Source of the DNA: Caulobacteraceae bacterium
GTDB lineage: Bacteria; Pseudomonadota; Alphaproteobacteria; Caulobacterales; Caulobacteraceae
DNA: 35,656 bases
Direction: 5' to 3'
NCBI GenBank assembly: GCA_031291685.1
Contig: JARLIP010000177.1
Coordinates: 1-35,656, forward strand
The notes beneath the pieces were generated by a model. It searched no databases, was not told the DNA's origin, and saw only the letters and a program-made list of their open reading frames with translations. Positions 4,374 to 27,799 of the stretch are shown in pieces. Positions within the stretch are counted from its first letter, which is position 1. Each line of letters begins with the position of its first letter. Made by a program: the position numbers and the translations under genes.

Positions 4374-6296
4374 TCAGCCCCCCAGGTCGGTCATCAGGTT
4401 ACGTCGAATGGCGTCCCCCGCCCGGGCGATCCAATCAGTGGACCGCTCCAGTCCCCGGGCCGTCTCAAGCGCCGCGATCAGAGCCCCGGCGGGGCGGTCG
4501 GCGGTCAGGCCGGCGGCGAACACCTCCCGCTCCAGCCGGTCGGCGGCCTGTTCGCAATCGACCACGGCGGTGAGGGCGGCCAGGGCGTCGTCAGCGTCCA
4601 CCTGGCGCCCCTCCGGACAATCGATACTGGCGTCGGCCGCCGTGACCAGGGCCTCGGCGGCCGACATGGCCAGACGGCACAGCCGGGAGAGCCCCGCCAG
4701 CACCGCCTCGCCCACATCACTGGGCAGGATCGAGGCGATGAAGGCGGCCTGCTCCAACTCGTCCACCGCCTGTTCCGCCCCGTCGATGATCGGCAACAGG
4801 TCCACAAGCCCCGCCGCCCGGGCCGCGGCGCGGCCCTCGATGGCGAGACGGTCGGCCTTGGCCTCAATCCGCTTGGCCCGGGCGGCCCAGCCGGCGTCAT
4901 CGTCCGCCCCCGCGCGCCGCAGAGCCTCGATCCGGGCGAGGATGGCGGCGCCGATTTCCCGGGCCAGTCCCGCCTGGCGGATCACCCCCAGGAACACCGC
5001 CGCCTCGGCCCGTTCGATCCGCCGCAGCAGCTCCGCCCCGATCCGGTCGCGCACCAGACGCTCCGAACCGCCCTGTCGCAGCACATCGGCGGCGAGTTGC
5101 AGGCAGGCCTGGAGGAACTCCACCGTCCCCTCATGACCCAGAACCTGATCCAGGCGCGCGCCAAAGCCGAGCCTTCCTGGGGCCACCTGCCGAACGGCCT
5201 GGGCGATCAGGTCGACCCCGCCCAGTTGCAGCCACGCCCGATGCCCCGCTCCATGCCGCGCCGCCCACAGCAACACCCGCTCGGCGCCCGGCTTGTCGCT
5301 GAGACCCGCCAGGGCCTTGCGCGCCTTGTTCCAGTCGATCAGGAACACCAGGCCCGCGCCCAGCCGTTCCAGCACATCGTCCCGCTGGGCGATGTCGTCG
5401 CTGACCAGCCGGCCCGTGACCAGATAGAAGCTGTCGCCCCCCGCCAAACCGGGCGCCTGCCGCTCCTCGAGCCCCGACCAGACCAGACCATCCATGCCTA
5501 GGAGCCGGATCAGGAAGCGCGCCCGGGCGCGGTGGACGTCGGTATAGGTGATCGTCACCGATCCCGGCTCGACGGCGGTGACCACCACGTGGGCGTCGGT
5601 AGTGCCAATGTCGTTCTGGATCAGCAGGCGCTCGCCGGAACGGGCCGCCGTGGTGTCCAGGCCCGGATGATCGAACTTGAGCGGGCGCGTGCGCTCCAGT
5701 CCGCGCATGAAGGCCAGCAGCGGCGCCCTGTCTTCCGGGCGCAGGCCGATGGCCTTGGCCCCGGCTATGGTCTCGGAAGCCTGGGCCGCGGCGGCGTGGT
5801 TAAGGCGCTTGTGCAAGTCCATCACTAGACGGTGGATGGAATCGCCGCCGGCCTTGGGCAGGGCCGTGATCCGGCTGACCGTCGCCGCTGCGATCTGGTC
5901 GGGGCCCGTCGGGATCAGGCCCGCCTTGAGTTCGGACCAGCGCGCGGTGAGCCCGGGGTCCTCGGCCCCGTCCAGGGCCTCGACGGACTGGAGCATGACC
6001 TCCAGATCCTCGCCCAGGGCCTTAAGCAGGTCCCCGAGACCGGGCGCCAGAAGCACCTGCCCGTCCATGGCCCGCGCCTGGCGTAGCAGGCGGCGCAGGG
6101 CCTCGGGATCGAGACGCGCGGCGGCGGCCTCCTGGTCCAGGTTGCGGCTGGCTGGATCACCCCCGCCGCCGGCCAACTGCAAGGCCGCCATGCGCACCTT
6201 GGCCCTATCGTTGGCGGCCAGCCCCGCGGACACCGACTGCGGCGCCGACAGGGCCCGCTCGCCAAGATACTCAAGAACAGCGTCCTTGACGGGCAT
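4374..6296 (-). CDS. Large protein with C-terminal DUF47/PhoU-like helical domain
   Basis: A 640-residue protein with no signal peptide or membrane segment, so probably cytosolic. The last ~175 residues (about 465-640) show the DUF47/PhoU-like helical pattern: RIEAKADRLAIEG, then DLLPIIDGAEQAVDELEQAAF, then DCEQAADRLEREVF and a final amphipathic helix. In known PhoU and DUF47 proteins, acidic residues in such helices bind metal clusters and the proteins regulate phosphate transporters. The N-terminal ~450 residues I do not recognise; they mix helices with a short beta-rich stretch around VVVTAVEPGSVTITYTD. It is the first gene of an operon with the half-length dikinase, 3 bp apart. An FNR/FixK-like site lies about 72 bp upstream. 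I infer a phosphorylation or phosphate-linked job for the pair. Confidence 0.72.
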   Translation of the reverse strand: MPVKDAVLEYLGERALSAPQSVSAGLAANDRAKVRMAALQLAGGGGDPASRNLDQEAAAARLDPEALRRLLRQARAMDGQVLLAPGLGDLLKALGEDLEVMLQSVEALDGAEDPGLTARWSELKAGLIPTGPDQIAAATVSRITALPKAGGDSIHRLVMDLHKRLNHAAAAQASETIAGAKAIGLRPEDRAPLLAFMRGLERTRPLKFDHPGLDTTAARSGERLLIQNDIGTTDAHVVVTAVEPGSVTITYTDVHRARARFLIRLLGMDGLVWSGLEERQAPGLAGGDSFYLVTGRLVSDDIAQRDDVLERLGAGLVFLIDWNKARKALAGLSDKPGAERVLLWAARHGAGHRAWLQLGGVDLIAQAVRQVAPGRLGFGARLDQVLGHEGTVEFLQACLQLAADVLRQGGSERLVRDRIGAELLRRIERAEAAVFLGVIRQAGLAREIGAAILARIEALRRAGADDDAGWAARAKRIEAKADRLAIEGRAAARAAGLVDLLPIIDGAEQAVDELEQAAFIASILPSDVGEAVLAGLSRLCRLAMSAAEALVTAADASIDCPEGRQVDADDALAALTAVVDCEQAADRLEREVFAAGLTADRPAGALIAALETARGLERSTDWIARAGDAIRRNLMTDLGG

Positions 6297-6419: not shown

Positions 6420-6827
6420 CTATTTCAGGGTGGCGAGATAGGCGATCAGATCGTCGAGTTGGGCCGGGTTCTTGACGCCAGCGAACATCATCTTGGTTCC
6501 GGGAACCGCCTTGGCCGGCGCGGGCAGATAGCCCCGCAGGCGATCTTCACTCCAGGCGCCGCCATAGGCCTTCATGGACGGCGAATAGGCGAAGCCGCTG
6601 ACCGAAGCCACGGGGCGCCCGACGATCCCGAACAGGCTCGGACCCATGATGGCCGCCCCGCCCTTGGCCGGGGAATGGCACATGGAGCATTGCGAGGCGA
6701 ACACCGACTTGCCGTGGGCGGCGTCTCCCGCCAGGGCCGGCGCGGCGCTGAGCAAACTCCCCACAAGGCCGCTGGCAAGGATCAAGGCGAGCCGCGGGCG
6801 TCGCGCGGGCGTCAGTAGGCGAACCAT
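6420..6827 (-). CDS. Class I cytochrome c (small, periplasmic)
   Basis: A 135-residue monoheme c-type cytochrome. A signal peptide (MVRLLTPARRPRLALILASG...APALA, about 33 residues) precedes GDAAHGKSVFASQCSMCH, with the heme motif C47-S-M-C-H51. The rest fits mitochondrial/c2-like cytochromes: MGPSLFGIVGRPVAS, a Trp before DRLRGYL, the axial Met in GTKMMFAG (113/114), and the C-terminal helix LDDLIAYLATL. The ATG at 6827 is chosen because a signal peptide follows directly; the frame is open much further upstream but that is antisense noise inside the neighbouring gene. It overlaps the 3' end of the cytochrome-porin gene by 16 bp, so the two are co-translated. A role as periplasmic electron carrier for that protein is likely. 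Confidence 0.93.
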   Translation of the reverse strand: MVRLLTPARRPRLALILASGLVGSLLSAAPALAGDAAHGKSVFASQCSMCHSPAKGGAAIMGPSLFGIVGRPVASVSGFAYSPSMKAYGGAWSEDRLRGYLPAPAKAVPGTKMMFAGVKNPAQLDDLIAYLATLK

Positions 6828-8176
6828 GTAAAGACCCTCAAGGTGTTGTTGTCGGAGGCGTTGGCGCCCGCGCCGTCGAAGTTGGATCGAGCCCCATCGA
6901 ACCTCGTATATAGGGTATATTGGACGCCGACACGCATATTGAACCGGAGCCCAATGGGAGATCCACCGCCGAAGGGGGTGCCGTCGAGTTGGAAGGTCAT
7001 GCCCGTGCTGTCCGGCTTCAGGGTGCGGTTGGCGGCGTAGATCGTCGGATTGGCGGAGCCGAAGGTGTCGAACACCGCCACCGTCGCGCCGATCTCGTTT
7101 CTCCAATAATATGAGACATCGGCGCGGATGTCGGACAGGTCGTTGCTGGCGCAGTCGGTCATCTGCCCGGCCAGGGCGCAGGTGGCGTTGAGGGACTGGT
7201 GCTCGTGGATATAGCGGGCGTTGGCGGTCACCACGTCGCTGTTCTGCAAGGTGCGCTCGTAGGAGGCGTCGACGCCCAGATCCGTGAAGCGGTCCGTCAG
7301 GCCTGTGCTGCGATCGCGGCCGGGATGGATGTCGGCGCGCATGCCAAAGGCGCCCACCTCCAGGGTTCCCGCTCCCAGAGCCTGTTGATAGGCGAGACGG
7401 GCGTAGGGCGCGAGGCCATCGATATCCCCTGGGGACAGCGGATCGGCGCCCAGGCGGGCCAGGGCGTTGGCGCCGGGCGAGCCATAGGCCCCGCCCTCGA
7501 TCATGAACTTGTTGTTGATCCAGGCATAGGCGGTCACCCCCAGGGTGTTCTGGGCCAAGGCGCCCGCCAGCAAGGGCGAGGCCGAGGGCGAAGGCGCGAG
7601 GGCCGAGCTGGTATAGGGATAACCCCAGGCCGGCAGGGTGTTCCACGCGTCCTGAACCGCCGGGTTGTTGTTCAGGCTAACGCCCAGCACCATGTCCGCG
7701 CCCTTGAACTGGGCGGTGGTGGTGGCGCGAACGTCGAGATTGTCCCAGGTCCAGGCCTTGGCGACGCCGTCATAAGTGGTCTGCACAAAGGCGCCCAGGT
7801 GCGAGCCCAGGCCGCCGGCGAAGAACAGGCTGACCTGATCCAGGGCGGCGTTGTCGTTGGTGCGGAAATCCGGCGCCGGCGGCGCGGGCTGATCCTTGGC
7901 GGTGCGCAGATAGGAGGCCACCGCCATCACCGAGACCGGCAGGTTGAAGGCGTTGGTGCGCATGGTGTAGCCGCGCAGCTTGAATTCACGGCCGAAGTTG
8001 GTGAGCTGCGGGCCGAAACCGCCCACATGGCACGCTTGGCAAGCCTGCCCCGTCTGCACGGCGAAGGCGGGAACCGCTCGGGCGGGGGTAAGCCCGATCG
8101 CGAACAGCGCCAGAACCAGTGAGCCCACGAGAATAAATGTTCGCCTGAGGGCGAGAGCCTGCGACGAGTATCCCAT
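6812..8176 (-). CDS. Cyc2-like fused monoheme cytochrome / outer-membrane porin
   Basis: A 454-residue exported protein. A signal peptide (about residues 1-34, ending PARA) is followed by VPAFAVQTGQACQACH with heme site C46-Q-A-C-H50, then FGREFKLRGY. This resembles Cyc2, the cytochrome-porin of Fe(II)-oxidising bacteria, whose mature N-terminus also has '..RQTG..C..CH', then a 'FGR.FK..GY' phrase, then a beta-barrel. The remaining ~390 residues alternate polar and aromatic residues, have few charged helices, and end in an aromatic residue (FTWFAY), as outer-membrane barrels do. The ATG at 8176 has a strong ribosome site (GGAGGAAT, 8181-8188). A small cytochrome c gene overlaps its end. The fold is a confident guess; the electron donor (iron or otherwise) is not known. 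Confidence 0.75.
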   Translation of the reverse strand: MGYSSQALALRRTFILVGSLVLALFAIGLTPARAVPAFAVQTGQACQACHVGGFGPQLTNFGREFKLRGYTMRTNAFNLPVSVMAVASYLRTAKDQPAPPAPDFRTNDNAALDQVSLFFAGGLGSHLGAFVQTTYDGVAKAWTWDNLDVRATTTAQFKGADMVLGVSLNNNPAVQDAWNTLPAWGYPYTSSALAPSPSASPLLAGALAQNTLGVTAYAWINNKFMIEGGAYGSPGANALARLGADPLSPGDIDGLAPYARLAYQQALGAGTLEVGAFGMRADIHPGRDRSTGLTDRFTDLGVDASYERTLQNSDVVTANARYIHEHQSLNATCALAGQMTDCASNDLSDIRADVSYYWRNEIGATVAVFDTFGSANPTIYAANRTLKPDSTGMTFQLDGTPFGGGSPIGLRFNMRVGVQYTLYTRFDGARSNFDGAGANASDNNTLRVFTWFAY

Positions 8177-8237
8177 GGTGATTCCTCCATGCAGATTGGC
8201 CTGCGTGGAGACCATGGATGCCCGACTCCACCCCGCC

Positions 8238-8251
8238 TTGAGGTGTATCAA
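8238..8251 (-). promoter_or_regulatory. Candidate FNR/FixK box upstream of the cytochrome pair
   Basis: TTGAGGTGTATCAA on the plus strand matches 9 of 10 defined bases of the TTGAT-N4-ATCAA palindrome bound by FNR/FixK-type regulators. It lies in the 102-293 bp stretch between the MFS gene's end and the cytochrome-porin ATG, its centre about 68 bp upstream of that ATG. That spacing fits a class II site with transcription starting near 8203. It suggests expression under low oxygen. Confidence 0.6.
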
Positions 8252-8278
8252 ATACGACACACACAGGCGGGGCCTGGC

Positions 8279-9472
8279 CTAAATCTTCGCTCGAATAGGC
8301 AAAAACTGTATCAACAGCGCCACGGTCGCCAGTATCGCCCCAAGCGCGCTCACCCCCGACCAGCCTCCAAACCGCCAGACCGTCATGGCCAGGGCCGAGG
8401 CCGCGGAGCCGCCCAGGAACATGCCCGTCATGAACACCGTATTAAGCCGGCTTCGGGCCTGGGGATGCAGGGCGTAAACCCGATGCTGGTTGGAGACGAT
8501 GGCGCTCTGCACGCCGAAATCCAGCAGGACCACCCCCAGGATCAGGCCAGGGATCGTGTCCCACAGGCCAAAGATCAGCCAGGACAGGACAGTCAGGATC
8601 GCGCCCAGGCCGATCACAAGCCGAGGACCGCTGCGATCGACGATGCGGCCGGCCAGGGGCGCGGCGAACACCCCCACGGCGCCGACGACGCCGAACAGCC
8701 CGGCGACATCCGCGCCCATATGAAAGCGGGATTGCTGAAGATGCAGGGCCAGGATGGTCCAGAACACGGTGAAGGCGCCGAACAGGCAGGCCTGGGTCAG
8801 GGTCGCGGCCCTCAGGACCGGCTCCGTGCGCCACAGATGGGCCAGGGACCTCAGGGCCATGCCATAGCGCATGCCGGTGTGGGGATGGTTGCGGGGCAGA
8901 ACCACCGCCATGGTCCCAGCCGCCGCCAGGGCGAGGGGCGAGCTAAGCCAGAACATCTGGCGCCAACCGGCATGGGTGGCGACGAACCCGGCCAGGGTGC
9001 GGCTGAACAGGATGCCGCAGAGCAGGCCCGCCATCACCACCCCGACGGTTCCGCCGCGCTTTTCCGGCGCGGACAGGGATGCGGCGAAGGGGACGATCTG
9101 CTGGGCCACCGTGGCGCAGGCGCCGAGCAGGAACGAGGCGATCACCAGGATCAGGGCGCTGGGCGCGGCCGCGGCGGCGATCAGGGCCAGGGCCAGGATC
9201 ACGAACTGGCCGACAATCAAGCGGCGCCGGTCCATCAGATCGCCCAGGGGCGTCACCAGAAACAGGCCCAGCGCATAGCCGAGCTGGGTCGCCGTGGGAA
9301 TCAGGGCCGTGGCCGCCGACCGGGGGAAATCCCGCTCGATCACCCCCAGCATGGGCTGGTTGTAGTAGATGTTGGCCACCGCCACGCCGGTCGCGGCGGC
9401 CATGATGAGGGTGAGGGGCCGGCCCAGGGCCAAAGGGGCGGCCGGGGTCTCGGTGGATTGGGCCTGACTCAA
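8279..9472 (-). CDS. MFS transporter
   Basis: A 12-helix major facilitator protein, about 397 residues from the chosen start. NIYYNQPMLGVI at the end of TM1, the loop 2-3 motif A (GDLMDRRRLIVGQ) and a weaker repeat in the second half (GRIVDRSGPR) identify the family. It resembles YnfM-like and sugar/drug exporters that begin '..A.ANIYYNQPML'. Start choice: no ATG or GTG precedes TM1. Two TTG codons are available, at 9472 and 9565, neither with a strong ribosome site. I prefer 9472, because the extra 31 residues from 9565 are Arg/Pro-rich and unlike MFS N-termini, and because a dyad at 9514-9530 would then sit in the promoter. Substrate unknown. Confidence 0.87.
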   Translation of the reverse strand: MSQAQSTETPAAPLALGRPLTLIMAAATGVAVANIYYNQPMLGVIERDFPRSAATALIPTATQLGYALGLFLVTPLGDLMDRRRLIVGQFVILALALIAAAAAPSALILVIASFLLGACATVAQQIVPFAASLSAPEKRGGTVGVVMAGLLCGILFSRTLAGFVATHAGWRQMFWLSSPLALAAAGTMAVVLPRNHPHTGMRYGMALRSLAHLWRTEPVLRAATLTQACLFGAFTVFWTILALHLQQSRFHMGADVAGLFGVVGAVGVFAAPLAGRIVDRSGPRLVIGLGAILTVLSWLIFGLWDTIPGLILGVVLLDFGVQSAIVSNQHRVYALHPQARSRLNTVFMTGMFLGGSAASALAMTVWRFGGWSGVSALGAILATVALLIQFLPIRAKI

Positions 9473-9679: not shown

Positions 9680-10333
9680 CTAGGGAACGTCCTCAAGAGC
9701 GGCGACGGCGCCGGTCTCGTCCGTGCGTCCGGCGAAGATGGCCACCGCCTCGGTCCGATTGCGCGCGCCGGTCAATCTCAGGATCGCCTGAACGTGCAGC
9801 TTGACCGTCGCCACCGAGATGGCGAGGACCCGGGCGATGGCCTTGTTGCTCTGGCCGGCCTGGATGCCCTGCAGCACCTCCCGCTGGCGGGGAGATAATC
9901 GCTCCAACAGACCGGGGCGTCCAACCTCGGCGGGACGAACCTCGGCGTGAGTCAGGGGGGGGAAATAGACGCCACCGGCCAGGACCAGCCCGATCGCCGC
10001 CCCGACCAGTTCGGCGCGGCTTGTGGCCGGCACATAGCCATGAATGCCCGCGGCCTGCGCCCGGCGAGCGGTCACGCGATCGGAGCAATTGCCGAACACC
10101 ACCACCCGACCAGGCGACACCGCCTCGACCAGTTCGGGCAAGCGCCGCAGATCCTCGGCCGAGCAGCAGAGCATGTCGGTCAAGACGAGATCCGTCGGCC
10201 GCTTCACGACCACGTCACAGGCTTCCCCGTAGGACTCAACGGCGGAGACCTCCGCTTTCGGGAAATGTCTGATGAGCAAGCCTTCCAACGCTTCCCTCAG
10301 AAGCGGATGCTCATCGACAACAAGAAATCTCAT
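9680..10333 (-). CDS. LuxR/NarL-type response regulator with atypical receiver domain
   Basis: A 217-residue two-domain regulator. The receiver begins MRFLVVDEHPLLREAL, with the acidic pocket at D7-E8 and the predicted phospho-acceptor Asp53 (LVLTDML). The usual Thr/Ser switch (FGN here) and the invariant Lys near GY (GYVPATS here instead of GY..K) are both missing, so phosphorylation-dependent switching may be lost or altered. The C-terminal LuxR HTH is intact: LSPRQREVLQGI, SNKAIARVL, VATVKLHVQAIL. The ATG at 10333 is chosen because it begins the receiver exactly; a GTG ten codons upstream (10363) is possible. The hybrid kinase gene lies divergently 629 bp away but has its own receiver, so pairing is unproven. 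An FNR/FixK-like site lies upstream. Confidence 0.88.
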   Translation of the reverse strand: MRFLVVDEHPLLREALEGLLIRHFPKAEVSAVESYGEACDVVVKRPTDLVLTDMLCCSAEDLRRLPELVEAVSPGRVVVFGNCSDRVTARRAQAAGIHGYVPATSRAELVGAAIGLVLAGGVYFPPLTHAEVRPAEVGRPGLLERLSPRQREVLQGIQAGQSNKAIARVLAISVATVKLHVQAILRLTGARNRTEAVAIFAGRTDETGAVAALEDVP

Positions 10334-10425
10334 CAGGTTATACTTTCTGGGCCACTGCGCCACCTTCAGATAGTGCGCGCTATCCCGCGGCGAGATCGGC
10401 CTAGGGCGCGCAATTGCCGCACGGA

Positions 10426-10439
10426 CTGATCTAGATCAA
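10426..10439 (-). promoter_or_regulatory. Candidate FNR/FixK box upstream of the LuxR-type regulator
   Basis: CTGATCTAGATCAA matches TTGAT-N4-ATCAA at 9 of 10 defined bases, and its core GATCTAGATC is fully symmetric. The centre is about 99 bp before the ATG at 10333. TTGATCTAGATCAA-like sequences are typical FixK/FnrL sites in alphaproteobacteria. Confidence 0.6.
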
Positions 10440-10962: not shown

Positions 10963-12642
10963 ATGACAGGGCGTCAGAAGGTCAAAACCGTCGAGACTCC
11001 GACCATTGGGCGGTCCGCGCTCGAAGAACGGCTCTCCGCTATTCTAGACCACGTCGCGGACGCCATCATCGTCGCCAACGATCAAGGCGTGATCGAGAGC
11101 ATCAACCTGGCCGCCGCCCGCCTGTTCGGTTGGGACGAGGCGTCCCTGGCCGGCCAGCGCCTGGACGTGCTGATGAGTGGGCGCGACCAGGCCGAGCATG
11201 CCGGCTACCTGAGCCGCTATCTGGAAACCGGCAGGGCCGGCATCGTCAATGTGGGGCCGCGGACCCTGCAGGCGCGACGCCAGGATGGGGTCATGATCCC
11301 GATCGAGCTGTCGGTGGGCGAGGCCTGGATTGATGGCGAGCGCAAGTTCATCGGCGCCTGCCGCGACATCTCCCAGAGGATCGCCAACGAAGAAGCCCTG
11401 AGCCAGATGGTGGCCGACCTGCGGGCGTCCAACGAGGCGCTGGAACGCGAGCGGCGGCAGTCCGAGGCCTGGGCGCGGGAGGCCGAGGCGGCCAACCTGG
11501 CCAAGTCACGCTTCCTGGCCACCATGAGCCATGAGATCCGCACGCCCCTGAACGGGGTCATCGCCATCGCCGATGTGCTGGCCAGCCGCGTCTCCGCCCC
11601 GGAGGACCGGGAATTGGTGGGCATCGTGCGGGAGTCCGGCCGCACCCTTCTGGGCCTGCTCAACGAGGTCCTCGATCTCGCCAAGATCGAGGCCGGCGCC
11701 TTGCAGTTGGACCCGGCGCCTTTCGCCCTTGGGGAATTGGTGACCTCCCAGGCGGTGACCTGGCGTCAGGCCGCCTCCAGCAAGGGTTTGGACATCCAGG
11801 TGGCCACGGCGATGCTGCCGGCCCTGCTCGGAGACGAAGGGCGCCTGAGGCAGGTGATCTCCAACCTGATCAGCAACGCCATCAAGTTCACCGAGCGCGG
11901 ATCGGTCTCGATCCGCTGTGAAACCCTGGGGATCGCCGACAACCTGGCCCAGGTGCGGCTGGTGGTGGCCGACACCGGCCTTGGCTTCGATTCCGCCCTG
12001 GCCGAGCGGGTTTTCGAGCCCTTTGTCCAGGCGGACTCCACCAACACCCGCCGCCACGGGGGCACCGGGCTGGGTCTGGCGATCTGCCGGGAGCTGGTCA
12101 ACCTGATGGGCGGCGATATCCGGGCCGAGAGCGCGCCGGGGGTCGGCACCACGGTGACCCTGCGCCTGGCCCTGCCCCTGGCGCCGACCGAGGCGGGCCG
12201 CCACGCCGCCGATGACCACCGCCTGACGCGCCTGACGGCGCCGCAGACCCGGTCCGGGCCGCTGGTGCTGGTGGCGGACGACCACCCCCTCAACCGGCGC
12301 ATCATGGGGGTTCTGCTGGACGAGCTGGGCCTGGAGCACGAGATGGTGGAGGACGGCGCCGCGGCGGTCAAGGCGGCCGCCAGCGGTCTGTACGACCTGA
12401 TCCTGATGGACGTGCAGATGCCGGTGATGGATGGCCTGGAGGCCACCCGAACGATCCGCCGACTGCCGGGCGCGGCCGGCAAGGTCTGCGTCATCGCCGT
12501 GACCGCCGACGCCATGAACGACCACGCCGCCGCGTGCCGGGACGCTGGCATGAACGACTTCCTGCCCAAGCCGATCCAACCCATGCAACTGCAAGCCCTG
12601 CTGATCAAGCACCTGTCCGCCGCCCGACGTATCGCCAGCTAG
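10963..12642 (+). CDS. Hybrid sensor histidine kinase (PAS - HisKA - HATPase - receiver)
   Basis: A 559-residue soluble hybrid kinase without membrane segments. The PAS domain (about 20-140, LDHVADAIIVANDQGVIESIN through GACRDISQRI) is followed by a coiled linker. The H-box FLATMSHEIRTPLNG carries phospho-His190. The N-box is NLISNAIKF (301-309), the G1 box VADTGLG (335-341) and the G2 box GGTGLGLAI. The C-terminal receiver (about 434-550) has DD at 439-440, phospho-Asp483 (LILMDVQMPVMDG) and Lys536 (FLPKPI), so all key residues are present. It needs a downstream His-phosphotransferase or regulator not encoded here. A PAS domain suggests an intracellular cue such as redox, oxygen or a ligand; no heme or flavin residue can be assigned by eye. 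Stop is followed by a hairpin at 12659-12694. Confidence 0.93.
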   Translation: MTGRQKVKTVETPTIGRSALEERLSAILDHVADAIIVANDQGVIESINLAAARLFGWDEASLAGQRLDVLMSGRDQAEHAGYLSRYLETGRAGIVNVGPRTLQARRQDGVMIPIELSVGEAWIDGERKFIGACRDISQRIANEEALSQMVADLRASNEALERERRQSEAWAREAEAANLAKSRFLATMSHEIRTPLNGVIAIADVLASRVSAPEDRELVGIVRESGRTLLGLLNEVLDLAKIEAGALQLDPAPFALGELVTSQAVTWRQAASSKGLDIQVATAMLPALLGDEGRLRQVISNLISNAIKFTERGSVSIRCETLGIADNLAQVRLVVADTGLGFDSALAERVFEPFVQADSTNTRRHGGTGLGLAICRELVNLMGGDIRAESAPGVGTTVTLRLALPLAPTEAGRHAADDHRLTRLTAPQTRSGPLVLVADDHPLNRRIMGVLLDELGLEHEMVEDGAAAVKAAASGLYDLILMDVQMPVMDGLEATRTIRRLPGAAGKVCVIAVTADAMNDHAAACRDAGMNDFLPKPIQPMQLQALLIKHLSAARRIAS

Positions 12643-12842: not shown

Positions 12843-14348
12843 ATGCCGCCGAACCATGACGCCCTGAGCGATCGATTGAACTTCATGGAGCTGTCCCCCG
12901 AGGCGCAGCAGCATTTGCGGGCGATCAAGCCCGTCATCGGGGCCGCGCTTCCCGGGGCCCTGGACGCCTTCTATGGCCAGGTTCAGGCCTATCCAGAGAC
13001 CCGCCGCTTCTTCTCCGGCGCCAGCATGATCGCGGGCGCCAAGAACCGGCAATTGGCCCATTGGGACATCATCTCCAGCGGCCGGTTCGACCAGGACTAT
13101 GTGCGGGCGGTGACCACGGTGGGCGAAACCCACGCCCGCATCGGCCTTGAGCCGCGCTGGTATATCGGCGGCTACGCCCTTCTGATGCAGAGCCTGATCG
13201 GCGCCGTGGTCGAGGCCCGCTGGCCGAGGGGCGGACTGGGATCGAAGAAGGGCGCCAGCGCCAGGCAGGTCACCGCCGAACTCGGCGCCCTGGCCAAGGC
13301 CACCCTGCTGGACATGGACTACGCCATATCGGTCTATCTGGAGGCGGCGGAAAAGGCCCGCCTGGCGGCGGAGGCCGAGGTTCTGGCCGCTGAACGCTCG
13401 ACCGTGGTCAATTCGGTCGGCGAAGGCATGGCCAGTCTGGCCGCCGGCGACCTGACCTACCGGATGTCCAACTCTATCCCCAGTGAATACGCCAAGCTGC
13501 GGGACGACTTCAACGCCGCCATGACCCGGCTGGAACAGACGATCGGGGTGGTCGGCGAGAAGACCCACGGCATCAGCGCTGGCGCCGACCAGATCGCCCG
13601 GGCCTCGGACGATCTGTCCCACCGCAGCGAGCGGCAGGCCGCCAGCCTGGAAGAGACCGCCGCGGCCCTGGACCAGATCACCGCCGCGGTCCGCAAGACC
13701 GCCCAAGGCGCGGAGCAGGCCAGCGAGGTGGTCAACGGCGCCAAGAACGACGCGCAAAAGTCCGGCGCCGTGGTCGCCCAGGCGGTCCGCGCCATGGACC
13801 AGATCGAGGGCTCGTCCAAACAGATCAGCCAGATCATCGGGGTGATCGACGAGATCGCCTTCCAGACCAACCTTCTGGCCCTCAACGCCGGAGTCGAGGC
13901 GGCCCGGGCCGGGGACGCAGGCCGCGGCTTCGCCGTCGTGGCCCAGGAGGTCCGGGCCCTGGCCCAAAGGTCCGCCGAGGCGGCCAAGGAGATCAAGGCC
14001 CTGATCTCCGCCTCCTCCCAGCAGGTCGGCGAGGGGGTGTCCCTGGTGGGGGAAACCGGAACCGCCCTGCAATCGATCGTGGCCAAGGTGGCCGAGATCG
14101 ACGCCCTGATCTCGGAAATCGCCGGCTCGGCCAAGGAACAGGCCACGGGGCTCAACGAGGTCAACACCGCCGTCAACCAGATGGACCAGTTGGTGCAGCA
14201 GAACGCGGCCATGGTCGAGGAATCCACCGCCGCCGCCCATTCGCTCAAGGGGGAGGCCGAGGGCCTGGCCCGGCTGGTCTCCAATTTCAGGGTGGCGCGG
14301 TCGGGATCGTCCCTTTACCGCGGCCCGCCACTCGCCGCGGTCTCCTGA
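12843..14348 (+). CDS. Globin-coupled chemoreceptor (protoglobin - linker - MCP signalling domain)
   Basis: A 501-residue methyl-accepting chemotaxis protein without transmembrane helices. The N-terminal ~165 residues are a sensor globin: the proximal heme His is His97 in VGETHARIGLEPRWYIGGY, the hallmark of globin-coupled sensors such as HemAT. A HAMP-like linker follows (MASLAAGDLTYRM...YAKLRDDFNAAM). The MCP signalling domain is at about 245-480, with the highly conserved hairpin tip ([20 protein letters not shown], continuing to [17 protein letters not shown]). In this family the globin senses oxygen and the tip engages CheA/CheW. Cytosolic location is inferred. It probably steers aerotaxis, which fits the redox genes nearby. 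No che genes are in the window. Confidence 0.94.
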   Translation: MPPNHDALSDRLNFMELSPEAQQHLRAIKPVIGAALPGALDAFYGQVQAYPETRRFFSGASMIAGAKNRQLAHWDIISSGRFDQDYVRAVTTVGETHARIGLEPRWYIGGYALLMQSLIGAVVEARWPRGGLGSKKGASARQVTAELGALAKATLLDMDYAISVYLEAAEKARLAAEAEVLAAERSTVVNSVGEGMASLAAGDLTYRMSNSIPSEYAKLRDDFNAAMTRLEQTIGVVGEKTHGISAGADQIARASDDLSHRSERQAASLEETAAALDQITAAVRKTAQGAEQASEVVNGAKNDAQKSGAVVAQAVRAMDQIEGSSKQISQIIGVIDEIAFQTNLLALNAGVEAARAGDAGRGFAVVAQEVRALAQRSAEAAKEIKALISASSQQVGEGVSLVGETGTALQSIVAKVAEIDALISEIAGSAKEQATGLNEVNTAVNQMDQLVQQNAAMVEESTAAAHSLKGEAEGLARLVSNFRVARSGSSLYRGPPLAAVS

Positions 14349-20332: not shown

Positions 20333-23300
20333 TTGGCCTCGTCTGTCTCTTCCCTGACAACGGCGCAGATTGCGGCCATGACGACGACCGCCGTGTCGTC
20401 GCTGTCCAAGTCCGACATCTCCGCCCTGTCGTCGGACCAGATCCAGGCCTTCACCGTCACCGAAATCCAGGCGCTGTCCGGGACTCAGCTGTCCCTGCTG
20501 TCCGCGGCGCAGATGCAGGCGCTGTCGGACACCCAGATCGCCTCCATCGGCGTCAGCCAGATGGCGTTCAGCGCCTCGCAACTGTCGGTGCTGATCGACG
20601 ACCAGATTGACAGCTTCGGCGCCGACAACATCGCCGCCCTGACCACCCAGCAGATCAGGGGCCTGACCTCCACCGAGATCGGCGCCCTGACCCCGGCCCA
20701 ATTCGCGGCCCTGTCGCCGACCCAGCTGGGGGCGATGACGGTCACCCAGATCCAGGGCATCGCCAGCACTCAGATTCCGACCCTGACCACCACCCAGCTG
20801 GCGGGTTTCAACTCGACCCAGATCGGGGCGATGGTCAGCACTCAGGTCGCGTCCCTGACCACCACCCAGATCACCGCCCTGACCACCACCCAGGTCAAGG
20901 GCTGGGCCGCCGCCGACCTCGCCGCCCTCTACCCGTCCCAGATCGACGCCCTGACCACCAGCCAGATGTCGGTGCTGACCACGACACAGCTGCGCGGCCT
21001 GACGGTCACGGACGTGGACGAGCTGTCGGCCAGTCAGTTGGGCGCCCTGTCATCGACCCAGGTCGCGGGCCTGACGGCCGCCCAGGTCGCGGGCATGACC
21101 TCGACCCAGATCGGTTCGCTGACCACCACCCAGATGGACACGATGACCGCCACCCAGATCGGCGCCATCCTGGACACCCAGATGGGATCGATCAGCACGG
21201 CGCAGATCGCCGGACTGACGAAGGCCCAGATCGCGGGCCTGAGCACGACCGCCCTGGGCGCCCTGGCCGCGACCCAACTGGCGGCCATGTCCTCGACCCA
21301 GGTCGCGGCGATGACCACGACCCAGATCCGCGCCCTCAGCAATGACCTGATCGGCGCCTTGACCACGACGCAACTGGGCCAGTTCACCATCACCGAACTG
21401 GCGGCCCTGACCAGCGACCAGATCAGCGCCCTGACCAGCACCCAGATCGGCGGCCTGACCACGACCCAGGTCAAGGGCCTGACCGCCGGGGGCGTATCGG
21501 CCCTCAACCAGTCTCAACTGGCCAGCCTTTCGGCGACCCAGCTGAGCAATCTGACGGCGACCCAACTTCGGGGCCTGACCACCACCGCGATCTCCAGCCT
21601 CACCGCCACCCAGCTGGCCGCCCTGAGCGCCAGCCAGATCGGCTCGCTCACCACCGTGCAGATCGGCGCGCTTAGCCCCGACCAGCTGGGCGGCTTGACC
21701 AACACCCAGATCGGCGGCCTGACATCCACCGAGATCAGCGCCATCACCGACGTGCAGATGGATGGGATCACCACCGATCAGCTGGCCGTCCTGACCCGCA
21801 CCCAGATGGCCGGACTGAGCACCACGGCCCTCGGCGCCCTGGACATGACCCAGCTGTCGGCCCTCTCCGCCCGCCAGCTCAGCGCCCTGTCGAGCACCCA
21901 GATCCGCGGGCTGAGCACGGACCTGATCGGCGCCCTGACCACCACCCAGTTGGGACAGCTGACCTCGACGGAGATCTCCGCCCTCTCCAGCGATCAGATC
22001 GGCGCCCTTAGCACGGATCAGATCGCCGCCCTGAGCCAGGGCCAGATCAAGGGGCTGACCTCGGGCGAGATGAGCTATCTGTCCTCGACCCAGGTCGCGG
22101 CGTTCACCACCACCCAGATCTCCACCCTCAGCACCACCCAGCTGCGGGGCATGACCGGGACCGAACTCAACGCGCTGACCACCGCCCAGTTGGCGCAGCT
22201 GAGCGCCAACCAGCTGGCGGGCCTGACCACCAGCCAGATCGTCAGCTTCACCTCATCCCAGATCGGCGCCCTGACCACCACCCAACTCGACGGTTTCACC
22301 TCCACCGAGATCAGCGCCATCCAGGACACGCAGGTGGCGGCCCTGACCACCGGCCAGCTGGCCAGCCTGACCCGCACCCAGATCGGCGCTTTCAACAGCA
22401 CCGCCCTGAACGCCCTGACCTCCACCCAGTTCGCCCAACTGAGCTCCACCCAACTCGCCGGCCTGACTCCCGCCCAGATCAGCAGCTTGGGCGCTGACAC
22501 CATCGGGGCCCTGACCACCACCCAGATGGATCAGTTCACCTCCAGCGAGATCGCCGCCCTGACCCGCGATCAGGTGAACGCCCTGAGCGCAAATCAGCTG
22601 GCTGGCCTGACCACCAGCCAGATGAAGGCCATGAGCGCCGCGGCGATCGGCAATCTGAGCCAGGATCAGCTCAACCAGCTCGCCACCACCCAGCTGGCGG
22701 TGCTGACCACGACACAGATCCGGGGCCTGACCACCACCTCGATCGCCGGCCTGAGCAGCACCCAGCTGGGCGCCCTGACCTCGGCCCAGCTCAGCGGCCT
22801 GACGGGCTCGCAGCTCACCGGCCTGAGCTCGGGCGAGATCGCCAGCCTGACCAGCACCCAGATCGCCGGGATCACCTCCACCCAGATCAACGGCCTGACC
22901 AGCGACCAGCTGAGCGGGATCACCACCACGGACCTGGCCGCTCTCACCACCACCCAGCTGAAGGGCGTCACCGCCACCGAGCTGTCGGGTCTCAACGGGA
23001 CCCAACTGGCGGCCCTGTCCTCGCGGCAGCTGGCGGCGCTCACCGCCGGCGCCATGGGTGGTTTCAGCGACGTCCAGATCAGCGGCCTGACCACCACCCA
23101 GTTCGCCGGCCTGACATCGACCCAGATCGGCGCCCTTTCCACGACGGCCATCGGCGCCCTGAGCACCGACGAGATCCAATCCCTGACCACCACCCAGATC
23201 CATGGGATCAACGGAGTCCAGATCGGCTATCTGGACTCCGACACCCAGATCTCTGTCATGACCACGACCCAGCTGGCGGCGATCTCGACCACATCGGTGG

Positions 23301-26300
23301 CGGGGCTCAGCGACGGTCAGATGGCGGGCCTGACCTCCACCCAGCTTCGGAGCCTGACCTCCAGCCAGATCGGCGCCCTGACCACCACCGCCCTCGGCGG
23401 CCTGACCGCCACCGGGGTGGCGACCCTGACCACCACCCAGATCGCCGGCCTGACCCCCGCCCGGGTCTCGGGCCTGACAACGACCCAGCTCACAGCCCTG
23501 ACCGCGAGCCAACTCGGCGCCCTGTCAACGACCCAGCTGGGCGGGCTGACCACCACTGAAACCCAAGCCCTGACCTCCACCCAGATCAGCGCCCTGAGCG
23601 CCACCCAGCTGGCGTCCCTATCCGCCTCAGGCGTCGGCGGATTCAGCAATGATCAGATCGCCGGCCTGACCAGGACCCAGCTGGCGACCCTGACCACCAC
23701 CCAGATCAAGGGCCTGACCACCACCCAGATCTCGGCCTTCAACGCCACCACGATCAGCCAGCTGACCACCACCCAGCTCGGGGCCATGACGGCCATTCAG
23801 CTGAGCAGTCTGTCCGCGAACCAGATCGCGGACCTGACCACCACCCAGGCGGCCTCCTTCAGCACCACCTCGATCAGCGGCCTGACGGCGACCCAGGTGG
23901 CGGCCCTGACCAGCGACCAGCTGGGAGTGCTGACCTCGACCCAGCTCAGCGCGATTTCGAGTTCGGGTGTGACGGGCCTGACCTCCACCGAGGTGGGCGC
24001 CTTGACCACCACCCAGCTCAACGGGCTGACCTCGCAGCAGATCGCCGCCCTCTCCAATGACCAGGTTCGTGCGCTGTCGGCCAGCAGCCTGTCCAACCTG
24101 ACCACGACCCAGCTCGCGGGCCTGACGGCGACTGAGGTCAATGTCCTGTCCACCGCCCAGCTGGCGGCCCTCAGCAGCACCCAGCTGGGCAGCCTGACCG
24201 CCAGCGCCCTGACCAACCTATCCGGCGCACAGGTCCAGAGCCTGAGCAACACCCAGCTTTCGGGCCTGACCTCCACCCAATTGGCGGCCCTGAGCGTCAC
24301 CGAGATCAACAACCTGTCGGCCAGTCAGCTGGCTTCGATGTCCACCACCCAACTACGGGGTCTTACGGCCACCCAGGTCGGCACCCTGTCCGCGACCCAG
24401 ATCGCGGGCCTGACCCGCACCGAGATCTGGAACCTGACCGCCACCCAGATCGCGGGGCTCAATCCCGACTCCATCAGCGGCCTCAGCACCACCGACGTTT
24501 CCGATCTCAGCACCACCCAGATCCGCGGCCTGACCAGTTCGGTGCTGCAGGCCATGGACACCACCCAGCTGGCGGCGCTCAGTTCCCGCCAGATCAACGC
24601 CCTGAGCAACACCGCCATCGTCGGCTTCACCGGCGATCAGTTCGCCGCCCTGACCACGACCCAGCTGGCGGGCGTCGCTTCGACCCAGATCGGCGTCCTG
24701 ACCAGCGACGAGATCAGCGGCCTGTCGGCCACCGACCTGCAAACCCTGACCGTAACCCAGATCGGGGGCATGACCGCCTCCCAGATCGCGGCCATGGACA
24801 GCGTCACCCAGATCCCGGCCCTGACCTCGACCCAGCTGAATGTGCTGACCACCAGCGCCATCGCCGGCCTGTCCGACTATCAGATGGCCGCCCTGACCAC
24901 GACGCAGCTGAGCGGCTTGGCCTCCAGCCAGATAGCCGCCCTGACCTCCACGGCCATCTCCGGCCTGACCACAACCCAGATGACGGCCCTGAGCACCACT
25001 CAGCTGGCCGGCCTGACCACCACCGAGATCGGCGAGCTGAACACCAACCAGCTGGCTGGCCTGACCACGACCCAGTTCGCATCCCTGTCCACCACCCAGC
25101 TCGGCGGCCTGACCGACACCGAGGTCCAGTCCCTGACCGGCGCCCAGCTCAGCGCCCTCAGCACCACCCAGCTGGCGGCGATGTCCGCCACCGGCATCGG
25201 CGGCCTGAGCGGAACCCAGATCGCCGGTCTGACCACCACCCAACTGACCACCCTGACCTCGACCCAGATCAGCTCCCTGACCACCTCCCAGGTCTCGGGC
25301 CTGACCATCACCGAGCTGTCCACCCTGGCCACCAGCCAGATCAACTCGATGACCCAGGCTCAGATCACCAGCCTGACCACCACCCAGATCGCCGCCCTGA
25401 CCACCACTCAGACGGCGGCCCTGACCAATACCGTCCTGTCCGATCTGACCGCCACCCAGGCCGCGGCCCTGACCACCACTCAGATCACCGCCCTCAACTC
25501 GACCCAGCTCGGCGCCTTGTCGGCCAGCGCCGTCGGTGGCCTGACCACCGCCGAGGTGGCGGCCATGTCCACCACCCAGCTGCGGGGCCTCAGCGCGGCC
25601 CAGATCGGCGCCCTGGCCACCACGGCCCTGGCCGGAATCACGGCGACCAATCTGAGCGCCCTGACCTCCAGTCAGATCGCCGGCCTGACCAGCACGGAAA
25701 TGGAGGCCCTGAGCAGCGACCAGCTGGCCGGCCTGACCACCACCCAGATCGCCGCCCTGACCACCAGCGCCCTGAGCGGCCTGGCGGACACTCAGATCGC
25801 GGCCCTGAGCACGACCCAGATCCATCGCCTCTCGGCCACCCAGCTGGGCGCCCTGGATCCGAACGAACTCAACGGGCTATCCACCACCGACGTGGCGCTC
25901 CTGACCACCACCCAGATCAAGGGCCTGACCGGCGCCCAGATCGCGGCCTTCGACACCACACAGATGAGCGCCCTGACCACCACCCAGGTCTCGGCCCTGA
26001 GCAACACCACCATCGCCGGCCTCAGCGCCGACCAGGTGGGCGCCCTGACCACTGATCAGCTCGGCGCCCTGACCTCGACCCAGCTTTCGGCCCTGTCCAG
26101 CGGCGAGATGGGCGGCCTGTCCTCGACCCAGTTGGCGGGCCTGACGCCCACCCAGATGAGCGGCCTGACCAACAGCCAGATCAGCGCCCTCAGCACCACC
26201 CAGCTGTCGGGCCTGACCAGCACCGACATCGGCGAGCTGTCCACCACCCAGCTGGGCGCCCTGACCGCCACCCAGATCCAGACCTTCAACACCAGCCAGC

Positions 26301-27799
26301 TGGCGGGCCTGACCTCCACCCAGGTCTCGGCCCTATCGACCCAAGGGGCCAGCGGCTTCTCCTCGACCCAGCTGGCGGCCCTGAATTCCACCCAGTTCGC
26401 CGCCCTGACCTCGACCCAGATCGGCGCCCTGTCGACCACCCTGATCAGCGCCCTGACCAATACCGAGATCGCGGCCCTGACGGCGACCCAGATGCGCGGC
26501 CTGACGGCGGATCAGGTTTCAGCCCTGACCACCACTCAGGTCAGCGGCCTGACCACCACAGAGGTCGCGAACCTGAACACCACACAGCTGGGCGGCCTGA
26601 CCACCACCGAGATGGGGGTCTTGAACCTGGCCCAGCTCGGCGCCTTGACCACCACCCAAATCTCGGCCCTCAGCACCTCGGCGATCAGCGGCCTGACCTC
26701 GTCGCAACTGGCGGCGCTGACCACCACCCAGCTTCGCCGCCTGAGCGCGACCCAGGTCGGCGCCCTGGCCTCGGACCAGATCACCGGCCTGACCACCACC
26801 AGCATGGCCGCCCTGACCACCACTCAGCTCGGCGGCCTGACCAGCTCCGAACTGGGCGCCCTGACCACGACCCAGCTGAGCGCCCTGACCTCCAACCAGA
26901 TCGCCGCCCTGGGAACCGCGGCCCTGACCGGCCTGACCGGGGACCAGATCGTCAACCTGTCCACGACCCAGCTCGGCAATCTGGCCTCCAGCCAGTTCGC
27001 CGCCCTGAGCACCACCGAGGTCGGGGAGTTCACCTCGACCCAGATCGCGTCCCTGACCACGACGCAGCTATCCGGCCTGAGTTCGACCCAAATGGCCGGC
27101 CTGACCAACGACGAGGTCCGGGCCCTGTCGCTCACCGATCTGTCGAACCTGAGCACGACCCAGCTGGGGGGCCTGACCTCCACGGCGGTGGCCGCCCTGA
27201 CCTCGTCGCAGCTGGGCAATCTGACCGCGACCCAGATCGGGGCCCTGGCCAGCACCGCGGTCAACGGCCTGACCATCTCCCAGGTGGCGTCCCTGACCAC
27301 CACCGAGATCGGCGAGCTGACCACCACCGCCATCGCCAACCTGAACACCACCCAGCTGGGCGCCCTGGTGCGCATGCAGCTGCGCGCCCTGTCCAGCTCC
27401 CAGGTCGGCGCCCTGACCACCACCCAGATCAGCGCCCTCAGCGCGACCCAGGTCTCCAACCTGACCATCACCGAGATCGGCGAGCTGACCCCGGCCCAGT
27501 TCGCGGCCCTGACCTCCACCCAGATCGGCGGCGTCATCTACAACGACGTCCAGTATGGCGGCCTGACCGCGGCCCAGCTGCAAAATCTGACGGCCACGGA
27601 GCTTGGCAATCTGAGCTATGATCAGCTGTCGGGCCTGAGCCAGACCCAGATCACCCAGTTGAACGCCACGGACTTCAACGGCCTGAGCACGACCCAGATC
27701 AGCTCCCTGAGCGCGACCCAGGCCGCCGCCATCACCGCAACCCAATTGGCCGCCATGACCCCGGCTCAGCTCGCCGCCGTCCAAGCCGCCCAGTCCTAA
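20333..27799 (+). CDS. Giant octapeptide-repeat protein (2488 residues), Thr/Ser-rich
   Basis: Not a family I can name. Practically the whole protein is an octad, consensus L-[TS]-x-T-Q-[ILVM]-x-[AG], repeated roughly 300 times from about residue 8 to the end. Rare 7-, 9- or 10-residue units occur (IGVSQMA near the N-terminus; LDSDTQISV; MDSVTQIPA; VIYNDVQYGG near the C-terminus). No Cys was seen, few charged residues, two Trp. There is no signal peptide, membrane segment, lipobox, RTX nonapeptide or capping domain, so the export route is unknown. The start is a TTG (20333) with GGAG at 20319-20322; the next in-frame ATG is at 20378, and a stop lies at 20303-20305. Octads form 24-unit super-repeats. 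A GT41 glycosyltransferase gene follows after 26 bp. I infer a secreted or surface glycoprotein. Fold (beta-solenoid or short helices capped by T..Q) is open. Confidence 0.9.
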   Translation: MASSVSSLTTAQIAAMTTTAVSSLSKSDISALSSDQIQAFTVTEIQALSGTQLSLLSAAQMQALSDTQIASIGVSQMAFSASQLSVLIDDQIDSFGADNIAALTTQQIRGLTSTEIGALTPAQFAALSPTQLGAMTVTQIQGIASTQIPTLTTTQLAGFNSTQIGAMVSTQVASLTTTQITALTTTQVKGWAAADLAALYPSQIDALTTSQMSVLTTTQLRGLTVTDVDELSASQLGALSSTQVAGLTAAQVAGMTSTQIGSLTTTQMDTMTATQIGAILDTQMGSISTAQIAGLTKAQIAGLSTTALGALAATQLAAMSSTQVAAMTTTQIRALSNDLIGALTTTQLGQFTITELAALTSDQISALTSTQIGGLTTTQVKGLTAGGVSALNQSQLASLSATQLSNLTATQLRGLTTTAISSLTATQLAALSASQIGSLTTVQIGALSPDQLGGLTNTQIGGLTSTEISAITDVQMDGITTDQLAVLTRTQMAGLSTTALGALDMTQLSALSARQLSALSSTQIRGLSTDLIGALTTTQLGQLTSTEISALSSDQIGALSTDQIAALSQGQIKGLTSGEMSYLSSTQVAAFTTTQISTLSTTQLRGMTGTELNALTTAQLAQLSANQLAGLTTSQIVSFTSSQIGALTTTQLDGFTSTEISAIQDTQVAALTTGQLASLTRTQIGAFNSTALNALTSTQFAQLSSTQLAGLTPAQISSLGADTIGALTTTQMDQFTSSEIAALTRDQVNALSANQLAGLTTSQMKAMSAAAIGNLSQDQLNQLATTQLAVLTTTQIRGLTTTSIAGLSSTQLGALTSAQLSGLTGSQLTGLSSGEIASLTSTQIAGITSTQINGLTSDQLSGITTTDLAALTTTQLKGVTATELSGLNGTQLAALSSRQLAALTAGAMGGFSDVQISGLTTTQFAGLTSTQIGALSTTAIGALSTDEIQSLTTTQIHGINGVQIGYLDSDTQISVMTTTQLAAISTTSVAGLSDGQMAGLTSTQLRSLTSSQIGALTTTALGGLTATGVATLTTTQIAGLTPARVSGLTTTQLTALTASQLGALSTTQLGGLTTTETQALTSTQISALSATQLASLSASGVGGFSNDQIAGLTRTQLATLTTTQIKGLTTTQISAFNATTISQLTTTQLGAMTAIQLSSLSANQIADLTTTQAASFSTTSISGLTATQVAALTSDQLGVLTSTQLSAISSSGVTGLTSTEVGALTTTQLNGLTSQQIAALSNDQVRALSASSLSNLTTTQLAGLTATEVNVLSTAQLAALSSTQLGSLTASALTNLSGAQVQSLSNTQLSGLTSTQLAALSVTEINNLSASQLASMSTTQLRGLTATQVGTLSATQIAGLTRTEIWNLTATQIAGLNPDSISGLSTTDVSDLSTTQIRGLTSSVLQAMDTTQLAALSSRQINALSNTAIVGFTGDQFAALTTTQLAGVASTQIGVLTSDEISGLSATDLQTLTVTQIGGMTASQIAAMDSVTQIPALTSTQLNVLTTSAIAGLSDYQMAALTTTQLSGLASSQIAALTSTAISGLTTTQMTALSTTQLAGLTTTEIGELNTNQLAGLTTTQFASLSTTQLGGLTDTEVQSLTGAQLSALSTTQLAAMSATGIGGLSGTQIAGLTTTQLTTLTSTQISSLTTSQVSGLTITELSTLATSQINSMTQAQITSLTTTQIAALTTTQTAALTNTVLSDLTATQAAALTTTQITALNSTQLGALSASAVGGLTTAEVAAMSTTQLRGLSAAQIGALATTALAGITATNLSALTSSQIAGLTSTEMEALSSDQLAGLTTTQIAALTTSALSGLADTQIAALSTTQIHRLSATQLGALDPNELNGLSTTDVALLTTTQIKGLTGAQIAAFDTTQMSALTTTQVSALSNTTIAGLSADQVGALTTDQLGALTSTQLSALSSGEMGGLSSTQLAGLTPTQMSGLTNSQISALSTTQLSGLTSTDIGELSTTQLGALTATQIQTFNTSQLAGLTSTQVSALSTQGASGFSSTQLAALNSTQFAALTSTQIGALSTTLISALTNTEIAALTATQMRGLTADQVSALTTTQVSGLTTTEVANLNTTQLGGLTTTEMGVLNLAQLGALTTTQISALSTSAISGLTSSQLAALTTTQLRRLSATQVGALASDQITGLTTTSMAALTTTQLGGLTSSELGALTTTQLSALTSNQIAALGTAALTGLTGDQIVNLSTTQLGNLASSQFAALSTTEVGEFTSTQIASLTTTQLSGLSSTQMAGLTNDEVRALSLTDLSNLSTTQLGGLTSTAVAALTSSQLGNLTATQIGALASTAVNGLTISQVASLTTTEIGELTTTAIANLNTTQLGALVRMQLRALSSSQVGALTTTQISALSATQVSNLTITEIGELTPAQFAALTSTQIGGVIYNDVQYGGLTAAQLQNLTATELGNLSYDQLSGLSQTQITQLNATDFNGLSTTQISSLSATQAAAITATQLAAMTPAQLAAVQAAQS
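21242..22969 (+). repeat. Three tandem 576-bp (192-residue, 24-octad) super-repeats A-B-C
   Basis: Copies begin at 21242, 21818 and 22394, exactly 576 bp apart, each opening with STTALGAL, STTALGAL or NSTALNAL. The octads whose Gln is replaced recur in the same columns: unit 0 (STTAL/STTAL/NSTAL), unit 4 (SNDLI/STDLI/GADTI), unit 10 (TAGGV/TSGEM/SAAAI) and unit 14 (TTTAI/TGTEL/TTTSI). B and C also share units 20-23 (FTSTEISAI, then TRTQ) with A. Divergence between copies is substantial, so they are old or under diversifying change. Confidence 0.85.
22970..25687 (+). repeat. Duplicated super-repeat pair D-E and D'-E' inside the giant gene
   Basis: D (22970-23548) and E (23549-24124) are matched, unit by unit, by D' (24533-25111) and E' (25112-25687), 1563 bp downstream. 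A partial unit of 17 octads lies between (24125-24532). D and D' share SSRQ at unit 2, FSDVQ/FTGDQ at unit 4, an insertion octad of nine residues at unit 11 (DSDTQI / DSVTQI), and LSDGQM/LSDYQM at unit 14. E and E' share a Glu octad at unit 0 and SASGVGG/SATGIGG at unit 3. This points to a segmental duplication or an ordered higher-order architecture. Confidence 0.8.

Follow-up and report, generated by a model that had tools for sequence, protein, structure and literature searches.

A Cyc2-type fused cytochrome-porin and its overlapping monoheme cytochrome c gene in Caulobacteraceae, members of a clade without the motif arginine

Described outer-membrane conduits and the Caulobacteraceae locus

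Published Cyc2 proteins combine an N-terminal heme and a 16-strand barrel in a single polypeptide (PMC8406198). Cyc2-PV1 of Mariprofundus, compared here together with Cluster 1 Cyc2, is a proven Fe(II) oxidase (PMC8406198), and the rus-operon Cyc2 of the Acidithiobacillus ferrooxidans type belongs to Cluster 2 (PMC7029218, PMC8406198); Clusters 1 and 3 have been linked with Zetaproteobacteria (PMC7029218). The Cyc2 authors require the motif PXFAR[Q/K][T/Y], removed sequences without it from their tree, and call the function of distant homologues uncertain (PMC8406198). Homologues are already on record from bacteria other than the recognised iron oxidisers, and alphaproteobacterial ones have mono- or diheme cytochromes as neighbours (PMC10654088, PMC10715153); for those of Acetobacteraceae, both Fe(II) oxidation and Fe(III) reduction are discussed (PMC10715153). 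Electrons also pass the outer membrane through MtoAB, PioAB and MtrCAB, in which a 26-strand porin and a ten-heme cytochrome are separate proteins (PMC8406198, PMC10654088). No account of a Caulobacteraceae Cyc2 was found in the open-access literature searched.

The window, that is, the whole 35,656-nucleotide stretch of Caulobacteraceae DNA analysed here, carries a fused cytochrome-porin gene adjoined by a cytochrome c gene, both located where the first-pass annotation had placed them. The best match of an unrelated gene elsewhere in the window is alphaproteobacterial. The fused protein resembles rus-operon Cyc2 in its single N-terminal CXXCH, its 16-strand barrel and its adjoining cytochrome partner gene, and groups with rus-operon-type Cyc2 in the tree; it differs in lacking the motif arginine, in having two extra residues before PQL, in a partner that is a monoheme class I cytochrome rather than the diheme Cyc1, and in the absence of a rusticyanin/aa3 operon around the pair. 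Cluster 1 Cyc2 shares the architecture and the heme-domain consensus but forms a distant branch with little similarity past the N-terminal part, and its hosts are obligate iron oxidisers, whereas RuBisCO was undetected in the carrier of the window. The Acetobacteraceae homologues are likewise alphaproteobacterial Cyc2 proteins beside a small mono- or diheme cytochrome, yet they represent a different family, and the accessible part of PMC10715153 mentions neither a fixed overlap nor an FNR-type box. Compared with the 26-strand porin and multiheme cytochrome of the MtoAB/PioAB type, the window pair has 16 strands, one fused heme and a one-heme partner. The arginine-less clade, the fixed gene overlap and the conserved oxygen-type promoter site are the new points of this locus.

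Architecture and descent of the fused cytochrome-porin

The fused gene (6812..8176, minus strand) encodes 454 aa and is confirmed by its open reading frame, structure model and tree placement. Translation starts at ATG 8176, with a GGAGG ribosome site ahead; the GTG at 8260 given in the ORF listing lies upstream, beyond the regulatory box. As read by eye, a Sec-type signal peptide spans about residues 1-34, with a hydrophobic region running to PARA, followed by VPAFAVQTGQACQACHVGGFGPQLTNFGREFKLRGY and a long strand-rich stretch; the C-terminal residue is aromatic. The heme plug with CQACH occupies about residues 35-70, and its heme site, AVPAFAVQTGQACQACHVGGFGPQLTNFGREFKLRGY (residues 46-50; 8027..8041, minus strand), has a CXXCH that is invariant across all aligned relatives. 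The signal peptide, the single CXXCH and the length agree with the definition of Cyc2, which sets a size of at least 365 aa.

Pfam and NCBIfam searches returned no model for the fused protein (a PorV match of 0.0014 fell well short of the cut-off), and searching PDB sequences gave no usable match. A structure model was built from an alignment of 58 relatives (pLDDT 85.6, pTM 0.83), showing a helical N-terminal heme domain at about residues 37-67 and exactly 16 strands, which form the predicted barrel of residues 81-453. The best structural matches in the PDB, obtained with Foldseek and a second aligner, were 16-strand general porins such as OmpC and OmpF (Z about 22; some 300 residues aligned at 3-4 Å), with the phosphate porin OprP also among the matches. 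The first-pass annotation had suggested a barrel and named a non-barrel fold as its refutation; the model predicts the barrel. A fold shared with general porins would also suit a plain substrate porin whose heme plug is a relic or structural part without electron transfer, but we regard such a porin as very improbable: CXXCH, PXL, GRXFK and the adjacent Q show no or almost no variation across all clade relatives in the alignment, and a soluble cytochrome c gene overlaps the porin gene in 9 of 11 orthologues.

Full-length relatives share 32-78% identity with the window protein. Relatives were found in 14 of 60 related genomes, in 88 of 398 genomes across the phylum and on 9 plasmids. In named genomes, 555 places were confirmed, many of them in genera known as heterotrophs, which makes electron uptake in a Caulobacterales heterotroph less surprising than had been supposed. 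Among the best 80 of these 555 relatives, the published Cyc2 motif is complete in nearly all, and a two-heme cytochrome gene comes directly after most.

To stand in for characterised Cyc2 proteins, the tree was anchored on a rusticyanin-bearing genome (G693) and on the bacterial family f39. In G693, some 7 kb separate a family member (E 4e-126) from a rusticyanin-like gene downstream of it (E 1e-39, under the curated cut-off). The intervening DNA encodes cytochrome oxidase subunits II and I, and coxC-, ctaA- and ctaB-like frames were recognised by eye, so that by its gene content the locus reads as a rus-type operon. Nearly every f39 genome holds 1 or 2 Cyc2-motif genes; we infer that this family is Zetaproteobacteria, which fits Clusters 1 and 3, and its matches to the window protein cover only about 60-140 residues. 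The window protein and the rus-operon proteins fall in one group (support 92/97), outside of which lie two f39 groups (100/99 each). Within it, a 20-row subclade (97/91) shares a GPQL-type signature two residues longer than usual, and the window falls in an 11-row clade (100/100) of this subclade. Because the protein nests with the rus-operon proteins while the f39 groups stay outside, it descends from within the Cyc2 family, in line with the resemblance proposed at first; the non-Cyc2 placement named as a refuter was not seen. It is thus Cyc2-type by descent, fold and layout, and by the strict motif fails one defining residue.

That residue is the arginine of AXPXFAR[Q/K][T/Y], which reads AVPAFAVQT in the window, with R replaced by V and every other motif position present. 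At this site (aligned position 40), arginine occurs in 0 of 13 sequences of the window clade and its paralogues, compared with 101 of the 102 remaining sequences in the alignment (83/84 further rows of the family and 18/18 reference rows, the latter comprising the f39 groups with 9/9 and 7/7 and the rus-operon proteins with 2/2). All 11 window-clade rows and both paralogues have V, A, M, D or Q instead. Two further alphaproteobacterial sequences (L144, L147), which group with the paralogues in the tree, and an Acidiphilium-type plasmid copy (L033) also lack the arginine, while it is retained in subclade members of gammaproteobacterial type, which belong to other classes of the phylum. The arginine-less clade comprises Caulobacteraceae-like genomes, a Sphingomonadales plasmid and other Alphaproteobacteria. 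In the window, PQL stands 5 residues after CXXCH, against a published Cyc2 spacing of 4 aa and spacings of 3, 4 or 5 among the aligned relatives. The paralogous Cyc2-type genes occur as second copies in two genomes of the same family (L044, L045), are about 40-44% identical and have no overlapping cytochrome; in L045, the copy is followed by a cupredoxin-like gene (8092-8409).

The cytochrome c partner and the FNR/FixK-type site

The partner gene (6420..6827, minus strand; start ATG 6827, stop at 6420) encodes a 135-aa monoheme class I cytochrome c with a signal peptide and a single CXXCH (Pfam PF00034, Cytochrom_C, 8e-11); its nearest NCBIfam model, Bradyrhizobium c-550, scored below the cut-off. 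It overlaps the 3' end of the porin gene by 16 bp, and both open frames and the Pfam match bear out the periplasmic class I cytochrome that had been reported to overlap there. The overlap lies at the identical position in 9 of 11 orthologues, including one on a Polymorphobacter plasmid, and in most orthologues that keep it, the LRV codons of the C-terminal strand provide a possible ribosome site, GAGGGT, for the cytochrome gene. A small cytochrome c gene follows the porin gene in most close relatives; in the subclade of the window, the partners that were found are monoheme class I cytochromes, each about 125-140 aa long, whereas other groups have diheme partners. In one relative (L041), the cytochrome gene stands about 700 bp from the porin gene, and in another (L039), no partner gene was found near it. 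Between porin and cytochrome, L041 encodes a weak hemerythrin-like protein with a homologue in L037.

Upstream of the pair, 62-75 nt before the ATG, lies the FNR/FixK-type palindrome TTGAG-GTGT-ATCAA (8238..8251; 9/10 to TTGAT-N4-ATCAA). A second box, CTGATCTAGATCAA (10426..10439; 9/10 match), precedes a response regulator gene, so the window holds two 9/10 sites where 0.19 are expected. Sites of the TTGAY-N4-RTCAA type occur at -75 to -82 in 7 of 12 orthologous upstream regions (the window and 6 further relatives) and are missing in the other 5; for each site, 0 to 1.3% of shuffled versions of its region reach as good a match. The site noted in the first-pass annotation thus stands, and its recurrence at the same placement in relatives strengthens the link to oxygen. 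The window's genome also encodes a regulator (L204) whose recognition helix, read from sequence, is ETVSR, and has a perfect box, TTGATCCAGATCAA, about 290 nt before a match to ccoN of the cbb3 oxidase. A site together with an E..SR regulator in the same genome points to predicted membership of an FNR/FixK regulon. FixK of Caulobacter crescentus drives ccoN expression when oxygen is scarce, and it also responds to iron availability (PMC3751524).

The NarL/FixJ-like response regulator behind the second box (9680..10363, minus strand) is context and not part of the conduit; the PAS-domain hybrid histidine kinase at 10963..12642 (plus strand) is probably its partner. In a congener (G003), counterparts of the two (70% and 69% identity, respectively) are neighbours of the cbb3 genes, with the Cyc2 pair of that genome about 16 kb away. 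A chemoreceptor with an N-terminal protoglobin domain (12843-14348; Pfam 2e-40), located about 5 kb from the window pair, is likely an oxygen or gas sensor; as a system part it was set aside, since sequences near other copies align only partly with it, mostly in the generic signalling half. Directly downstream of the pair, a 640-aa protein without a Pfam match above cut-off (4374-6296) is followed by a PEP-utilising enzyme-like gene. Farther along, a 2488-aa open frame (20333-27799), rich at its start in S-x-L-T/S-x-x-x-I-x-A/S repeats, probably encodes a repeat-rich surface protein. The pair is conserved while its flanking genes mostly differ among genomes, and a conserved operon beyond the pair across the whole clade was rejected for this reason.

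A predicted low-oxygen conduit and its alternatives

We consider it somewhat probable that the two genes form a translationally coupled conduit of the Cyc2 kind from outer membrane to periplasm, induced at low oxygen, with dissolved Fe(II) as the likeliest electron source and as a supplement to heterotrophy. Architecture, descent, overlap and the conserved regulatory site are observed features, to which the direction of flow and the substrate are added by inference. Porin termini are periplasmic, so the heme plug would sit at the periplasmic mouth of the barrel. Dissolved Fe(II), or another small reductant, would enter the barrel, as modelled for Cyc2 (PMC8406198), and reduce the plug heme. 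The small cytochrome c would take the electron from this heme and hand it to a terminal oxidase, for which the high-affinity cbb3 enzyme of this genome is the simplest candidate. Expression of the pair would be turned on when oxygen is low. RuBisCO had no match in the 9 carrier genomes searched; RuBisCO-based autotrophy was therefore rejected, and a supplement to heterotrophic respiration, or protection against Fe(II), would be a more likely role than CBB-type autotrophy. The window's own genome is 81% complete, so its lack of RuBisCO and of a multicopper oxidase weighs little. The fold and tree placement thus support the Cyc2 part of the original Fe(II) reading, whereas the diagnostic arginine is absent and Fe(II) uptake is the more conjectural part; furthermore, the arginine-less clade has no characterised member, and FNR control also suits reductive metabolism.

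The main rival is Fe(III) reduction, in which the same conduit would run outward at low oxygen: electrons would leave the quinone pool by way of the small cytochrome c and the plug heme and reach Fe(III) or another extracellular acceptor. The FNR/FixK-type control of the pair agrees with such a direction, although the cbb3 oxidase and the FNR box are equally compatible with microaerobic oxidation. Outward roles have been put forward for Cyc2-type proteins of acidithiobacilli (PMC8790237) and are discussed for Acetobacteraceae, where Acidiphilium reduces Fe(III) (PMC10715153). The plasmid copies of Acidiphilium and Acidithiobacillus have anaerobic neighbours (U32-peptidase/SCP2 genes of the UbiUV/UbiT kind and an anaerobic ribonucleotide reductase), but these relatives are only about 32% identical, and a narrow barrel with one heme is suited to soluble iron, whereas Fe(III) is insoluble at neutral pH. 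Outward flow is, on this evidence, unlikely. On these plasmids (L033, L034), related porin-cytochrome and cytochrome c genes occur near the genes of the oxygen-independent ubiquinone-synthesis kind and the reductase, and the Acidiphilium multivorum plasmid copy is annotated as two separate open frames.

Neighbouring genes in congeners bear on another reading, in which the pair, working with a periplasmic multicopper oxidase, would serve another reductant or protect against metals (e.g. by detoxifying Cu(I), Mn(II) or Fe(II)). Such an oxidase is encoded in all four congeners searched (75-76% identical) and next to the pair in three, where a membrane-type protein and a small protein complete the set (L035 8136-10567, L036 3649-6010, L037 2849-5818); the accompanying 110-115 aa and 187-211 aa proteins have no Pfam match. 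The loss of the motif arginine and the cupredoxin-like gene after one paralogous copy are consistent with a role of this type. Against it, the window's own genome (81% complete) has no multicopper oxidase orthologue, its best match being 31%, and no copper resistance genes were seen within the window; we judge such a role quite unlikely.

Fe(II) uptake at low oxygen remains the preferred reading, and the missing arginine may qualify it, since the heme environment may then differ from that of the proven iron oxidases. It is a tentative possibility that the arginine-less clade is a functionally distinct Cyc2 branch whose heme has been retuned and which has a monoheme shuttle of its own; it would let ordinary heterotrophs draw electrons from extracellular metal by a route induced at low oxygen. 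If it is truly distinct, this branch would have been missed because published screens demand the arginine. The published Cyc2 filter would in any case leave this clade off the tree. The natural loss of the arginine offers a way to ask how this residue affects heme potential and substrate. Cyc2 is a proposed marker gene for microbial iron oxidation, and with a clade that keeps the whole machine and drops the diagnostic arginine, current counts may understate how far such one-heme extracellular electron transfer reaches among heterotrophs.
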